NCBI GenBank assembly: GCA_913778085.1
Contig: CAJYXJ010000012.1
Coordinates: 1-32,425, forward strand
From: an uncultured Chryseobacterium sp.
GTDB taxonomy: Bacteria > Bacteroidota > Bacteroidia > Flavobacteriales > Weeksellaceae
Length of the DNA: 32,425 bases
Direction: 5' to 3'
Position 1 is the first letter of the stretch, and each line of letters starts with the position of its first letter. The translations under genes were made by a program, and so were the position numbers. Of the stretch, positions 20,535 through 25,246 are shown piece after piece. Below the pieces are notes generated by a model, which saw only the letters and a program-made list of their open reading frames with translations, was not told the DNA's origin and made no database searches.

Positions 20535-20553
20535 AACAACAGGATAAAAACAG

Positions 20554-20583
20554 AAAAAGCAGTCTCAGGCAAGGCTGCTTTTT
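20554..20583. terminator. Bidirectional terminator between convergent genes
   Basis: AAAAAGCAG (20554-20562) pairs with CTGCTTTTT (20575-20583), with A and T runs on both flanks. It terminates the transpeptidase transcript and, read on the other strand, the histidine kinase, whose stop codon lies in the loop. Confidence 0.8.
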
Positions 20584-21956
20584 TTATTGTCGGAGCTGAA
20601 CCGCACCTGGAAAATACTTCCTTCGCCGGGTACTGAGGTCAGCACGATGCTGCCATGATGCATTTCAATGATTCTTTTGACAATGGATAAACCTATTCCG
20701 TTCCCTTTTTCGTCATGTTTATTGGCTCCGCGGTAAAAAAGATCGAAAATTTTATCCCGGTCTTTTTCATCAATCCCGATCCCGTGGTCGATAAAACGGA
20801 TGTCCAGTATCCGTCCATAAACTTCAATTTCGACCCGGCAGCTTCTGTCCGCCGAATATTTACAGGCATTTTCCATCAGGTTAAGAAAGGCAACCTGCAG
20901 CAGATAAGGATTTCCATAGAAATCGTAATTGCTTTCGTCCTTATCGGCCATGTTATCCATATAATGAATGCCGATCCGGTAGTTCTGGTTCTTCTGGAGC
21001 AGATCGACCTTTGCATCGGCAAGAATCTCATCCAGCCGGAGATCTGTAAAGCTGATCTGGGAAGCATCATAGCTGGCCCGCGCAAAATCCAGGAGGGCAG
21101 AGGAAAGCTGTGAGGCATGCGTCGCATCCTGCAGGGCATTGTTGATGGAAATCTTATAATCATCCAGGGTGACATTCAGTTCTTTCGCAAGTTCCAGCTC
21201 GGCAATCAAAGTGGAAAGCGGGGTCCGGAATTCATGGGAGATCGTCGTTACAAACTGCCGGTGGTTGCTGAAGGATTTTTCCAACCGGTTAAAGGTTGAA
21301 TTAAACGTTTCGGTAAGCTCATAAATTTCATCTTTCGCTTTGGGAACCACCAGTCTTTTGTGAAGGTTATGCTCTGAAATATCGCGGATCTGAACAATAA
21401 TGTCTTTTAAAGGCTTTAGTGTATAGTAGGAAAACAGGAAACCGATGACGAAAATAATGAGAACGGAGATAATGTAAACCACAATAATATCATTCCTGAA
21501 TTCTTTAATGTGGGCCAGTCCGGTTACGTCAACGGCGCTTCCGATAATGTAAAAATTATCGCCGTTAAATTCATACCGGAACGCCATATACTGCCGGGTT
21601 CCGCGTTGCCAGGTAATTTTGTCTTTCCGGGTTTTGATCAGTCGTCCAAGGTAATATGGATTTTTTGAACTGGGTTTAATATCCGTAAAAATCAGCTGTT
21701 TTTTACTGTTATAGACGCTGATGTCGGCTTCATTCAGCATCTTTTTGTTTCGTTCATGAAGCTTTTTTATTTTGTTGCCGTCTATATTGGCATCAAAGAT
21801 AAATTCTGCCCTCCAGATAATTTTGTAACCTAGGCGGTCATTGAATTCATCGTTCCTGTTTCTTTCGGAAACGAAATAAAGGACATAGGCAAAAATAAAC
21901 AGGATGCCTGCGGTAATCAGTGCGTACATCAACGCGGTCCGGGTAGCGATTTTCAT
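20565..21956 (-). CDS. Sensor histidine kinase
   Basis: A 463-residue inner-membrane kinase. Transmembrane helices lie at about residues 9-29 and 157-178, enclosing a periplasmic sensor of about 125 residues. A HAMP linker follows (PLKDIIVQIRDISEHNLHKR). The phosphorylated histidine is H241 in T-I-S-H-E-F-R-T-P. ATP-binding boxes are N363 in N-L-M-E-N-A-C-K-Y-S, DHGIGIDEKD, FDLFYRG and KGNGIGLSIV. All catalytic elements are intact. It overlaps the response regulator by 4 bases (ATGA), so the two are translationally coupled. The periplasmic sensor shows no named ligand-binding fold to my eye. The context points to the divergent porin operon as its target. Confidence 0.93.
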   Translation of the reverse strand: MKIATRTALMYALITAGILFIFAYVLYFVSERNRNDEFNDRLGYKIIWRAEFIFDANIDGNKIKKLHERNKKMLNEADISVYNSKKQLIFTDIKPSSKNPYYLGRLIKTRKDKITWQRGTRQYMAFRYEFNGDNFYIIGSAVDVTGLAHIKEFRNDIIVVYIISVLIIFVIGFLFSYYTLKPLKDIIVQIRDISEHNLHKRLVVPKAKDEIYELTETFNSTFNRLEKSFSNHRQFVTTISHEFRTPLSTLIAELELAKELNVTLDDYKISINNALQDATHASQLSSALLDFARASYDASQISFTDLRLDEILADAKVDLLQKNQNYRIGIHYMDNMADKDESNYDFYGNPYLLQVAFLNLMENACKYSADRSCRVEIEVYGRILDIRFIDHGIGIDEKDRDKIFDLFYRGANKHDEKGNGIGLSIVKRIIEMHHGSIVLTSVPGEGSIFQVRFSSDNKKSSLA

Positions 21957-22642
21957 AAGTTCCGGGTAAAAATAAATCCCGTTCCGGGCTTGGTATGAAT
22001 CAGTTTTTCATCGAAATCCTTATCGATTTTCTTACGCAGATAGGCAATGTATACATCAATATAATTGGTTCCCGTATCAAAATGGTTGCCCCAGACATTT
22101 TCTGCAATTTCTTCCCGGGTCAGGATACGTTCTGCATGGGTCATGAGGAAAACCAGCAGTTTGAATTCCTTAGGGGTGAGGGTAATTTCTTTTCCATCCC
22201 GGAATACGCGGTTGGTCTTCTGATGAATCACCAGCTGATGGTACTGAATAAGATCCGGGGTTTCTTCTTTTTTCGGCAAAGATGATTTTCTGAGCAGGAT
22301 GGCTTTGATCCGGGCATACAGTTCCCGGATCTCAAAAGGTTTCACCATATAATCATCGGCTCCGGCATCAAAACCTTCGATCTTTTCATCGATGGTTCCC
22401 AGGGCGGTCAGCATAATAATCGGCAGGTCCGGATGTTTCTGCTTAATGATTTTACTGAATTCGATCCCGTTCATCTGCGGAAGCATAATATCCGTAATGA
22501 TCAGGCCGAACGCGATCCGGTCTGCTAAAATCAGGGCATCTTCCGCATCTTCCGAAATATAGATCTGGTAGCCCTGGCTTTCAAGACCCCGTTTCAGCAG
22601 GGCAGAAACCCGGGCATTGTCTTCTATGATTAAAATTTTCAT
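21953..22642 (-). CDS. OmpR/PhoB-family response regulator
   Basis: A 229-residue transcription factor. The receiver domain (residues 1-120) has the acidic pocket E7-D8, the phosphorylation site D51 in I-I-T-D-I-M-L-P, T79 and K101 in V-K-P-F. The C-terminal winged helix (about 130-229) contains LTPKEFKLLVFLMTH and a recognition region near GTNYIDVYIAYLRKKID, as in OmpR and PhoB. It is the first gene of the pair with the histidine kinase. Winged-helix regulators of this family bind tandem direct repeats spaced by one helical turn, and exactly such repeats (22777-22806) lie in the upstream divergent region. Confidence 0.94.
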   Translation of the reverse strand: MKILIIEDNARVSALLKRGLESQGYQIYISEDAEDALILADRIAFGLIITDIMLPQMNGIEFSKIIKQKHPDLPIIMLTALGTIDEKIEGFDAGADDYMVKPFEIRELYARIKAILLRKSSLPKKEETPDLIQYHQLVIHQKTNRVFRDGKEITLTPKEFKLLVFLMTHAERILTREEIAENVWGNHFDTGTNYIDVYIAYLRKKIDKDFDEKLIHTKPGTGFIFTRNL

Positions 22643-22724
22643 CTGGAATACTGTTTCAGACAGGAAAGATAAGCCGGACAGTGTTTCTTAAAAGCCTGGA
22701 TTCCGACCCTGTACAAATCCCATA

Positions 22725-22732
22725 CAAAGGTA
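22725..22732 (-). promoter_or_regulatory. -7 element for the response regulator/kinase pair
   Basis: The minus strand reads TACCTTTG, matching TAnnTTTG, with a leader of about 75 bases before the regulator. No TTG is spaced correctly, and the TTTTCTAA repeats lie 45-80 bases upstream of it, so autoregulation is possible. Confidence 0.45.
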
Positions 22733-22776
22733 TTTCATATTTTATTCATGGAAAAACGGAATCCGGCGTTTAATGG

Positions 22777-22806
22777 TTTTCTAAAGATTTTCTAATGGTT
22801 TTCTAA
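22777..22806 (+). promoter_or_regulatory. Three direct repeats TTTTCTAA at 11-bp period: probable regulator binding site
   Basis: Exact octamers TTTTCTAA start at 22777, 22788 and 22799, so each lies one helical turn from the next on the same face of the DNA. The third ends 23 bases before the porin -7 element. OmpR-family dimers bind such tandem sites, and the regulator gene is adjacent, so this is most likely its operator. The binding itself is inferred. Confidence 0.7.
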
Positions 22807-22829
22807 CGACGTTCCCGGGTTTTCAAAAC

Positions 22830-22837
22830 TAATTTTG
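22830..22837 (+). promoter_or_regulatory. -7 element for the porin operon
   Basis: TAATTTTG matches TAnnTTTG and lies 35 bases before the porin ATG. There is no TTG at -33; the TTTTCTAA repeats stand just upstream instead, which is what an activator-dependent promoter would look like. Confidence 0.55.
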
Positions 22838-22872
22838 TCCCGTCAAAACAACTAAAAGAGGACTGAAACACT

Positions 22873-24201
22873 ATGGACAGAAGATATCTTAAAACAGGGC
22901 TTATCATTGCTTCATTAATAGTGATGAGCCAGAAAGCGGAAGCACAGAAGAAAAACGATTTCGGGAATCCCGCACTTACCCATTATCTCAATGAACAGCA
23001 CACCCGATACATTTCGTTCAGCGGATATGCCGAATTGTGGGCACGCTATGCCCAGCTAAATCCGGGGAGCATGGTCAACAACGATGCAAAATCGGATGTT
23101 GCCGATCTTTCTCTTCGCCGGATCAGGGTAAAAATGACGTACAAACCGACGGAAAAACTGATGTTTGTGCTTCAGGGAGGAACCACCAATGTGAATGTGA
23201 ATGCGAAAGGCAGCAATTATTTCGATCTGCTGGATGCCTACGCAGAATATGCTTTTAATGATAAGATTGCTGTCGGAGCCGGGCGTTCCACATGGAGAGG
23301 GCTTTCCCGTTTCACCACAGGTCCTTTGAATACGCTGCTGTACGATCTTCCGGCTTATGCCACTTCCAATGCCGGAGCAACGGATTATACTGTAAGGGAG
23401 CTCAGTGCCTACATCAAGGGGCAGCTGGGAAAATTTGATTACCGGTTGGTCGTAGCCGATCCTTATACGATGGCGACCGCAGATCCGAAGCCCAATGTTT
23501 CCACATTCAGTAAAAATTCGCCGCATAAAGATTTCTCAGGGTATTTCCGTTATGCTTTTCTGGAAACTGAAAATATTTCCACCCCGTTCAATTCCGGAAC
23601 CTATGCTGGGAAAAAGAAGGTGCTGAGCCTGGGAGCCGGATTCGATTACATCCACAATGCCATGTGGCACCAGGATGCCGCTAAAAATACGGTGAATGAC
23701 GATATGAAGAGCTTTGCCGCAGATCTGTTCTATGATGCACCGCTGAATAAAGAAAAAGGAACCTCCGTAAGTGCCTATGCCATGGCGATGCACAATGATT
23801 ACGGCCCGAATTATGTCCGCTACGTGGGAACCAATAATCCGGCAACTTCAGTGGATGCTTCCCTGACAAGCCTGAACGGCGCCGGAAATGCCATGCCCGT
23901 AATCGGGACCGGCAATACCTATTATCTGCAATTGGGAGGGACATTACCTTATTTTAACAAAGAAAAGAAAGACCTTCAGTTACAGCCTGCCGTCGGAATA
24001 CAGCTTTCCGACCTCAAAGGCCTTCATGACAATGCCATTATCTATGATGCCGGAATTTCTTTGCTGATGAACGGGATGTCATCCCGATTCACTTTCGATG
24101 CGCAGAACCGCCCCGTCTTTACACCGGACGCCGCTAATAACGCCATGGTTTCAGACCGGAAATGGCAATTCGTCCTGAAATACAGGATTGATTTTAACTA
24201 A
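22873..24201 (+). CDS. Outer-membrane porin (phosphate-selective porin O/P-like)
   Basis: A 442-residue beta-barrel protein. The signal peptide ends in Q-K-A-E-A-Q at about residue 25. The body is a series of short amphipathic strands with aromatic girdles (ISFSGYAELWARYAQLNPG, then DLSLRRIRVKMTYKPTEKL), as in the OprO/OprP-type porins of Bacteroidetes. The last strand ends VLKYRIDFN, with an aromatic residue near the C terminus as a BAM signal. It is not a TonB receptor: no plug domain is present and the length is half. The substrate cannot be read from sequence. It is the first gene of an operon with the Dabb and cupin genes, apparently controlled by the divergent two-component pair. Confidence 0.82.
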   Translation: MDRRYLKTGLIIASLIVMSQKAEAQKKNDFGNPALTHYLNEQHTRYISFSGYAELWARYAQLNPGSMVNNDAKSDVADLSLRRIRVKMTYKPTEKLMFVLQGGTTNVNVNAKGSNYFDLLDAYAEYAFNDKIAVGAGRSTWRGLSRFTTGPLNTLLYDLPAYATSNAGATDYTVRELSAYIKGQLGKFDYRLVVADPYTMATADPKPNVSTFSKNSPHKDFSGYFRYAFLETENISTPFNSGTYAGKKKVLSLGAGFDYIHNAMWHQDAAKNTVNDDMKSFAADLFYDAPLNKEKGTSVSAYAMAMHNDYGPNYVRYVGTNNPATSVDASLTSLNGAGNAMPVIGTGNTYYLQLGGTLPYFNKEKKDLQLQPAVGIQLSDLKGLHDNAIIYDAGISLLMNGMSSRFTFDAQNRPVFTPDAANNAMVSDRKWQFVLKYRIDFN

Positions 24202-24255
24202 AAAACTACCGCTGTTCGTGAAGAGCAGTAAACCATAAAACCAATCATACTTATT

Positions 24256-24678
24256 ATGGAAAGAAGAAAATTTTTATTCCGTTCGGTACAGGCTTCAGCT
24301 TTATTGCTGGTTTCAGGAAATCTGTTTGCTTCTGCCTTACCGATATTTAACCCCATAAAAAAGAAAAAAGTGTACTTCCATTATTTATTGTTCTGGCTCC
24401 GGAAAGACCTTTCCGAAGCTGAGGTGAAAGACTTTGAGAACTTTTTCAAAGGATTGGCCAAGCTCCCTTATCAGAAAAACCTGCGTTACGGAAGACCGGC
24501 AGCTTCCAGTCCAAGAAATGTCCTGGACAACAGCTTTACCTACAATGCCTCCATGGAATTCGACAGCCTTGAAGCGCTTGAAGCCTACGGACAACTTCCG
24601 GAGCATCTCGCCCTCGTACAGAAATACAAGCCATTCTTTGAAAGAATGCTGGTTCACGATACCGTTTATAACCCCTAA
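24256..24678 (+). CDS. Dabb-domain protein with a twin-arginine type signal
   Basis: A 140-residue protein. M-E-R-R-K-F-L-F-R-S-V plus a hydrophobic segment (ASALLLVSGNLFASA) is a Tat-type or Sec signal, so the protein should be exported, although no thylakoid-like maturation can be proven. The rest resembles the stress-responsive alpha/beta-barrel family Dabb (PF07876): V-Y-F-H-Y-L-L-F-W-L at the first strand, then SMEFDSLEALEAYGQLPEHL, the typical 'F-x-S-x-x-A-L-x-A-Y-x-x-x-P-x-H' segment. Dabb proteins are small dimeric ferredoxin-like folds, with ligand-binding or catalytic roles in only a few members. Spacing is 54 bases after the porin and 19 before the cupin, so one operon. Confidence 0.78.
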   Translation: MERRKFLFRSVQASALLLVSGNLFASALPIFNPIKKKKVYFHYLLFWLRKDLSEAEVKDFENFFKGLAKLPYQKNLRYGRPAASSPRNVLDNSFTYNASMEFDSLEALEAYGQLPEHLALVQKYKPFFERMLVHDTVYNP

Positions 24679-24697
24679 AAAAAGAATCCGATCAGAA

Positions 24698-25183
24698 ATG
24701 AAAAACTTCGTTAAAGGCATAAGCCTTGTTGTAGCATTTTCAACAATGAGTTTTATGAATGCACAAGACCATCACAAGAAACACATCAGCGTAAAAGCAG
24801 AGGAAACCACTGAATTTATCCCGGCCATCAGGCTGGTGAATAAACCTGATGGGTCCTGCAATTTCGAGAAAGGTAAAATTCCTACGCTGAAGCATATGAA
24901 TACCAACACTTTCTGGATGAGCAACAAAACCGAGGAATGGGAAAAGAATGCACACCCTGCACCGAGAAGACAATATGTGATTACCATCAAAGGAAATATC
25001 AAATTCAAGGTAACCGACGGTTCCACTTTTATGATTAAACCGGGAACGGTATTGCTGGCGGAAGACCTGAAAGGAAAAGGCCACAGCTGGGATATGGTAA
25101 AAAGCAAAGTCTGGGAAAGGCTTTATATCCCGATCGCGGAAGATGCCGATGATTTCTTTATTGCAGACAAAGATCAGGATTAA
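24698..25183 (+). CDS. Exported cupin-fold protein
   Basis: A 161-residue protein with a signal peptide (MKNFVKGISLVVAFSTMSFMNA, cut before Q23). A single cupin domain follows: motif 1 around HPAPRRQYVITIKGNIKFKV (H86 onward) and motif 2 GTVLLAEDLKGKGH with H129. Metal-binding residues of a classical cupin (two His and Glu, then His) are only partly present, so ligand binding is more likely than catalysis. A His-rich N terminus (D-H-H-K-K-H) may bind metal. The frame runs upstream to 24434 across the Dabb gene, but the ATG at 24698 begins the signal peptide. It is the last gene of the porin operon and has a strong terminator after it. Confidence 0.75.
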   Translation: MKNFVKGISLVVAFSTMSFMNAQDHHKKHISVKAEETTEFIPAIRLVNKPDGSCNFEKGKIPTLKHMNTNTFWMSNKTEEWEKNAHPAPRRQYVITIKGNIKFKVTDGSTFMIKPGTVLLAEDLKGKGHSWDMVKSKVWERLYIPIAEDADDFFIADKDQD

Positions 25184-25221
25184 CTTCAGTTTCATCCGAT
25201 GTTATATAAATCGTACAATGG

Positions 25222-25246
25222 AAAAGCAGCCCGAGGGCTGCTTTTT
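25222..25246 (+). terminator. Terminator of the porin operon
   Basis: GCAGCCC (25226-25232), a GA loop, and GGGCTGC (25235-25241), with AAAA before and TTTTT after. It is a textbook intrinsic terminator, 38 bases after the cupin stop. Confidence 0.88.

Follow-up and report, generated by a model that had tools for sequence, protein, structure and literature searches.

What do five neighbouring genes of an uncultured Chryseobacterium sp. do that set a sensor pair opposite three genes for exported proteins? The genes lie in a stretch of 32,425 nucleotides (contig CAJYXJ010000012.1 of assembly GCA_913778085.1; hereafter the window), in which the pair occupies 20565-22642 on the minus strand and the operon 22873-25183 on the plus strand. 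The sensor histidine kinase (HK; 20565..21956, 463 amino acids) is a membrane protein with HAMP, HisKA and HATPase domains in which, by inspection, two transmembrane stretches flank a periplasmic domain of ~120 amino acids, and its gene overlaps by 4 bp that of an OmpR/PhoB-type response regulator (RR; 21953..22642, 229 amino acids). The operon encodes an outer-membrane beta-barrel porin, Porin_O_P/ExtI-like (22873..24201, 442 amino acids), an exported Dabb (dimeric alpha-beta barrel) protein with a Tat-like signal (24256..24678, 140 amino acids) and an exported cupin-like protein (24698..25183, 161 amino acids) with conserved H86, Q92, D123 and H129. Pfam assignments were clear for the HK, the RR and the Dabb protein and marginal for the porin; the cupin had no Pfam match, cupin families included, and no NCBIfam match. 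Of 15 gene comparisons, 12 showed a dN much lower than dS and three had a saturated dS; the nearest named relative, judged by the cupin, is Chryseobacterium hagamense (98%).

An earlier note on this DNA had proposed the five genes as a candidate module that senses and takes up or handles one compound. The genes were found where that note had placed them and are present as one conserved unit, which we read as a self-contained, horizontally spreading envelope-response unit, giving this reading an even chance. An envelope cassette under the control of a two-component system (TCS) is of a kind already known; the regulatory finding is solid. No described system with this gene set was found in the open-access literature, of which coverage is incomplete, in line with the note, which knew of none.

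Conservation and spread of the five genes

Two collections of relatives were used: a scan with the cupin over one genome per species, which gave 46 loci, and a set of 197 genomes of the family, whose species may overlap with the first. All five genes stand together in 44 of the 46 cupin-fetched loci and the porin and Dabb genes precede the cupin in 45, the two exceptions being a short contig that starts inside the porin (L007) and a lone cupin (L047). Of the 44 complete loci, 42 have the two operons in divergent orientation, as had been described for the window, and two from Sphingobacterium (L045 and L048) have the single-strand order RR-HK-porin-Dabb-cupin. Among the 197 family genomes, orthologs of the Dabb protein (at least 57% identity) occur in 21, those of the porin (at least 72%) in the identical 21, and the cupin adjoins in 21 of 21; the three orthologs are thus present all-or-none. 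Further genomes of this set have only distant Dabb matches (13 genomes, at most 32% identity), only distant porins (65 genomes, at most 38%) or a cupin match but no Dabb ortholog (42 genomes). Scattering in relatives was one of two refuting tests that the earlier note had attached to its module, and by both counts the genes are not scattered. In one of the 44 loci, from a metagenome assembly (L005, 1421-2808), the HK frame is split into two overlapping pieces, by a frameshift or an assembly error. One family genome, G119, holds a decaying cassette (L091, 5185-7737), with porin and HK truncated, the RR gone and the Dabb and cupin frames open.

The surroundings of the cassette are varied. In a neighbour survey based on mechanical open reading frame (ORF) calls, with all five genes in 47 of 48 loci, the kinase-side neighbours fell into 18 families (48 loci) and the cupin-side neighbours into 21 (47 loci), with YkuD on the kinase side in 27 of 48 and FabF on the cupin side in 17 of 47. 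This variety of flanking genes argues that the five genes are a self-contained cassette that moves as one unit. A functional tie to the MsrB, YkuD and FabF neighbours was rejected, as the stretches fetched for the Epilithonimonas, Flavobacterium-type and Sphingobacterium loci, and for Chryseobacterium L030 and L031, lack these genes. Carriage on plasmids was unsupported as well: matches in the plasmid collection were single distant genes, the best identities being 35% for the cupin, 22% for the Dabb protein and 29% for the porin. A 4.08-Mb Proteus mirabilis record labelled as a plasmid (L103, NZ_OL790811.1) looks chromosomal by its size.

The cupin also occurs alone, and in 26 of the 33 lone-cupin loci listed it stands beside YkuD, usually with FabF beyond, and begins with no evident signal peptide. 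The chromosomal site of these YkuD-side lone cupins (L047, L092, L156-L169, L173-L178, L180-L182 and L186) is that of the cassette in the window. In a midpoint-rooted cupin tree of 57 rows, 25 from cassettes and 32 lone (L047 was dropped as the same protein as L163), two label changes occur: cassette cupins are nested among the lone ones, and the cassette group (support 94/93) in turn includes four lone cupins. One clade (97/98) unites the Flavobacterium and Sphingobacterium cassette cupins, L090 and L091 from the window's family and four lone cupins, and this grouping suggests that the cassette spread horizontally. The cupin of the cassette seems to be derived from a resident cytosolic protein by the gain of an export signal, followed by losses; a cytosolic-first order is favoured rather than shown, given the midpoint rooting and the long branch of the outgroup. 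Some lone cupins start with MNGQ or MNAE, which may alternatively be the remnant of a signal peptide; inspection of the 150 bases upstream of 14 lone cupins showed no decayed signal peptide.

The probable regulator box and the porin promoter

The intergenic region between RR and porin is 230 bp long and holds a candidate tandem regulator box on the plus strand (22767..22806), with exact TTTCTAA copies at 22778, 22789 and 22800 and a degenerate fourth copy at 22767. The repeats follow an 11-bp period, which is typical of OmpR-family sites. Exactly 23 bp past the last repeat lies the -7 element of the porin operon, TAATTTTG (22830..22837, plus strand), the Bacteroidota consensus of this element being TAnnTTTG; a candidate -7 element of the RR-HK operon that matches the same consensus, TACCTTTG, is found on the minus strand (22725..22732). 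A regulatory region shared by the two divergent units had been predicted for this DNA, and the intergenic region indeed contains both a conserved box and the -7 element of the porin operon.

The distance of 23 bp between the last repeat and TAnnTTTG recurs in 53 of 53 porin upstreams when spacers of 19-27 bp are allowed; 47 of these upstreams are distinct and six rows come from the window's own genome. The number of repeats varies from two to four, and L090, which lies outside the 53, shows the equal spacing by eye. Across the family, the array stands at the porin in 19 of the 21 cassette genomes; of the remaining two, G099 has two repeats with unchanged spacing (by eye) and G119 is decayed. 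In the genome of the window the three-repeat pattern is matched exactly once; with up to three mismatches there are four matches (one of them an overlapping register of the array itself) against five in the reversed control. The complete promoter pattern likewise has one exact match there, and five against six with up to three mismatches; exact matches occur in 2 of 395 genomes of the class, the window's own and the distant G711.

Taken together, these data describe a conserved site, predicted to be of the activator type, before the porin operon, and the TTTCTAA array is probably the target of the RR and appears close to private to the cassette in the genome of the window. In the mechanism that we propose, molecules of the phosphorylated RR would occupy the box in tandem along one face of the DNA and recruit RNA polymerase to the porin promoter, and porin, Dabb protein and cupin would be produced together. 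What is new here is that the probable target of the RR becomes visible, as a box with a fixed 23-bp spacing. To our knowledge, few Bacteroidota two-component systems have known boxes; here an unannotated neighbourhood becomes a defined unit whose arrangement of regulator, site and promoter is predicted.

Riemerella anatipestifer is a bird pathogen of the same family as the window organism. Its PhoPR, studied by DAP-seq and deletion, is a broad regulator with 583 DAP-seq peaks and the conserved core motif TTTAACA (PMC9603813). PhoP was considered as the same regulator, but the core motif given there is not TTTCTAA. The heptamer TTTCTAA also occurs inside a CRISPR repeat, as an excerpt of PMC5395568 shows.

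Sister systems beside magnesium and metal genes

With one mismatch allowed, the array is present in 36 of the 197 family genomes, 19 of them being the cassette carriers that have it at the porin. Ten array places other than those at the porin were opened, among them a second array (L132) in G060, a cassette carrier. An mgtC-like gene stands behind the array in seven of the ten (L127, L128, L129, L130, L131, L132 and L135), several of these with genes for a Mg P-type ATPase and of CzcCBA type that follow or have an array of their own. MgtC was assigned by Pfam in L129, L130, L131, L132 and L135, by NCBIfam below the equivalog cut-off in L127, and by likeness to L127 in L128. The NCBIfam scores were above the cut-off for a magnesium-translocating P-type ATPase in L127 (1251 bits against a cut-off of 975) and for a CusA/CzcA resistance-nodulation-division (RND) protein in L128 (951 against 701).

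A sister TCS adjoins in five of the seven places (L127, L128, L131, L132 and L135), with RRs 52-55% and HKs 33-38% identical to those of the cassette. The recognition helix of the sister and cassette RRs is near-identical, FDTGTN(Y/F)IDVYI.YLR, and differs from that of another RR, in L134. The spacing of 23 bp returns in 10 of 10 sister promoter matches from seven sister loci (15-30 bp allowed), and in G711 the matching promoter lies before mgtC-mgtE. The same arrangement of TTTCTAA repeats, 23 bp and TAnnTTTG precedes mgtC, and in part of the loci CzcCBA-type genes, in L127, L128, L129, L130, L131, L132, L135 and L148. The two groups of systems are thus alike in RR, helix, array and spacing, but the sister systems have other targets, a weakly similar sensor region and a TCS on the strand of its targets, and mgtC, mgtA and RND genes are not all found in every locus. 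No description of a sister Bacteroidota TCS with mgtC, a Mg P-type ATPase or a CzcCBA-type RND protein was found in the open-access literature.

The simplest reading of these sequence comparisons is one regulator group with one box, which would serve Mg/metal genes in many species and the cassette in others. Because the sister TCS share the RR helix and the promoter layout before mgtC and CzcCBA-type genes, the sensor of the cassette probably belongs to a cation, metal or envelope-stress lineage and not to a nutrient-uptake one. The 23-bp rule and the TTTCTAA array would then predict targets of the regulator group, namely mgtC, mgtA, mgtE, CzcCBA-type genes and the cassette, and the promoter before mgtC and some CzcCBA-type genes would mark a predicted Mg/metal regulon of Bacteroidota.

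Several observations weigh against an envelope-response unit of this descent. Three of the ten non-porin arrays (L133, L134 and L136) are not followed by mgtC; a -7 element at 23 bp is lacking in L133 and L134, and is present in L136 (5186-5255) with no ORF of at least 90 amino acids directly after it. The genome of the window has no MgtA of the sister type (the best-scoring match is 26% identical). CzcRS/CopRS/CusRS (TIGR01386/TIGR01387) is the best NCBIfam match of both the HK and the RR of the cassette, yet both score below the curated heavy-metal cut-offs (HK 173.4 against 292.55 bits, RR 210.5 against 279.2), PhoB models score nearly equally for the RR, and the cassette has no efflux pump or known metallochaperone. 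The porin reaches Porin_O_P (PF07396) marginally, at 22.2 against 20.9 bits over positions 8-89 of the 370 of the profile, and does not reach the ExtI selenite/tellurite porin (NF040900; 43.8 against 150 bits). Finally, sister and cassette sensors are 26-31% identical over their first 200 residues, so the stimulus may differ between the two systems. In the window genome, sister-type control of mgtC, mgtA or RND genes was not found, the one exact array being that at the porin.

The gap between sensor regions (26-31%) and regulators (52-55%) would also fit a case of regulatory paralogy only, in which TCS and box were recruited from a Mg/metal system, now sense something unrelated, and reveal nothing of the stimulus by their kinship. 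In Pseudomonas a horizontally acquired CusRS stands beside a core CopRS, and closely related regulators there have common DNA-binding motifs, the signals of some being unknown, as reported in PMC11195947. CusRS resembles the cassette as an acquired TCS with its own operon, but it has copper resistance genes where the cassette has porin, Dabb protein and cupin. We consider a purely regulatory kinship very unlikely, given that N70, NE75-76, D92, Y128, A141, D143 and G146 are kept in 17 of 17 aligned cassette and sister sensors. No convincing PDB relative was found by sequence for the HK sensor region.

In L133 (4880-5546) a TTTCTAA-like array lies shortly before a TerD-domain gene, with MerT and a metal-sensor-like gene 4 kb off, and in L136 an RND efflux gene is near the array on the other strand.

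The exported proteins and the proposed function of the cassette

In the envelope-response reading, the HK would detect a periplasmic change, most likely one of the cation, metal or envelope-stress type, because the nearest sister systems found accompany mgtC, Mg2+ P-type ATPase and CzcCBA-type efflux genes. The porin would alter which small anionic solutes cross the outer membrane, and in the periplasm the Dabb protein and cupin would act on a small molecule or a metal complex, by binding it, chelating it or rendering it chemically harmless. Lacking an inner-membrane transporter of its own, the cassette would protect or condition the periplasm rather than feed a catabolic pathway. Indeed, neither an inner-membrane transporter nor a catabolic gene is part of the five-gene core or common to different contexts, although single loci do have a transporter next door (by eye, for example an MFS-type gene in L034 and an antiporter-like gene in L017). 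With such a core, and with sister systems that sit with Mg2+/heavy-metal genes, the uptake system for one compound that the earlier note had envisaged is not borne out. Its view that all three operon products are exported agrees with signals seen by eye on each of them, but the Tat-type signal that it gave the Dabb protein is not essential: the signal is Tat-like in most cassettes read and, by eye, Sec-like in L090 and L091. Since Sec-like signals replace Tat-like ones in these loci, it is the predicted export of the Dabb protein that matters more than its route.

For the porin, no convincing PDB relative was found by sequence (one chance match). Two paralogous porins of the window genome (L085 and L086) stand beside metabolite/H+ symporter-like genes, and other kin stand beside bestrophin and acetate-CoA ligase genes. 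In L088 (5140-7249) and L089 (4393-6651) a paralogous porin adjoins an exported-looking alpha-carbonic anhydrase (by Pfam in L088, by eye in L089), which suggests a bicarbonate/anion channel pair. Because its relatives adjoin symporter-like, alpha-carbonic anhydrase, bestrophin and acetate-CoA ligase genes, the cassette porin is likely to be an anion-type channel. A phosphate system was rejected, as the Porin_O_P match is marginal and no pho gene was seen beside the cassette.

The Dabb domain (PF07876) was assigned at 50.3 bits against a gathering cut-off of 25. A profile search over this domain matched the Dabb-type protein 3bn7 (8.5e-11) and olivetolic acid cyclase (OAC; 1.2e-6), a plant polyketide cyclase, whereas the cassette protein is exported. 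H42, Y111 and H117 align with OAC H5, Tyr72 and His78, and Y96 with OAC His57, the OAC numbering being inferred from the 3-residue offset of the PDB chain. A tyrosine and a histidine at these positions are common across the Dabb family. In OAC, Tyr72 and His78 are catalytic (PMC7962319). The aligned residues, together with the symporter-like neighbours of the paralogous porins in the window genome, would be in keeping with nutrient handling along the lines of the earlier note, in which a small aromatic or carboxylic acid would enter through the porin, be converted in the periplasm by the Dabb protein and cupin, and be sensed by the HK. We regard this as unlikely: the core is without an inner-membrane transporter or catabolic gene, the Tyr/His pair is widespread in the family, the position of OAC His57 is taken by a tyrosine, and the lineage of the regulator points to Mg/metal genes.

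In the cupin, H86, D123 and H129 are present in 12 of 12 sequences of near and distant relatives and Q92 in 11 of 12 (a Sphingomonas row was left out), plausibly a candidate metal or ligand site; no convincing PDB relative was found by sequence. Distant cytosolic relatives of this cupin (L098 and L100; 28-30% identity) stand beside a glyoxalase/dioxygenase-type gene, in L098 also a carboxylesterase (by Pfam in L098 only), and a LigB-type dioxygenase and a carboxylesterase adjoin the HK in 2 of 13 Flavobacterium-type loci (L033 and L035; by Pfam in L033 only). Such neighbours would suit a periplasmic detoxification of quinones or phenols, the Dabb protein and cupin acting on reactive aromatics that enter through the porin, but the kinship of the cytosolic cupins is distant and the other 11 of the 13 loci show no such neighbours in the ~1.7-1.9 kb fetched on the HK side, and we hold this explanation to be improbable. 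The clusters of L098 (3440-5924) and L100 (3933-6422) contain glyoxalase/dioxygenase, carboxylesterase, MarR or monooxygenase-like genes (names partly by eye), and presumably resemble Mhq operons. In L033 (201-1882) and L035 (80-1707) the LigB-type dioxygenase has an export-like N-terminus.

Returning to the envelope-response unit, a more specific version of it can be proposed tentatively, as a possibility that we rate below the general one: a mobile outer-membrane/periplasm unit that joins a sensor of Mg/metal lineage and a private promoter to a new cargo, the porin and a Dabb-then-cupin reaction on one small molecule or metal complex, the cupin having been recruited from the cytosolic cupin of the same site and re-addressed to the periplasm. 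The cargo is a convenient starting point for work on Dabb and cupin proteins of the periplasm.

With regard to the ends of the cassette, scans for sigma-70 promoters and terminators gave no excess over shuffled sequences, and the terminator scan listed neither of two hairpins that were assessed by folding energy. A terminator-like hairpin (20552..20585) lies across the 3' end of the HK gene and adjoins a convergent YkuD-family gene; it folds at -16.4 kcal/mol on the plus strand (0 of 200 shuffles as good) and at -11.2 kcal/mol on the minus strand (1 of 200). At the end of the operon, on the plus strand, a predicted intrinsic terminator (25221..25246) folds at -17.5 kcal/mol, with 0 of 200 shuffles as good.

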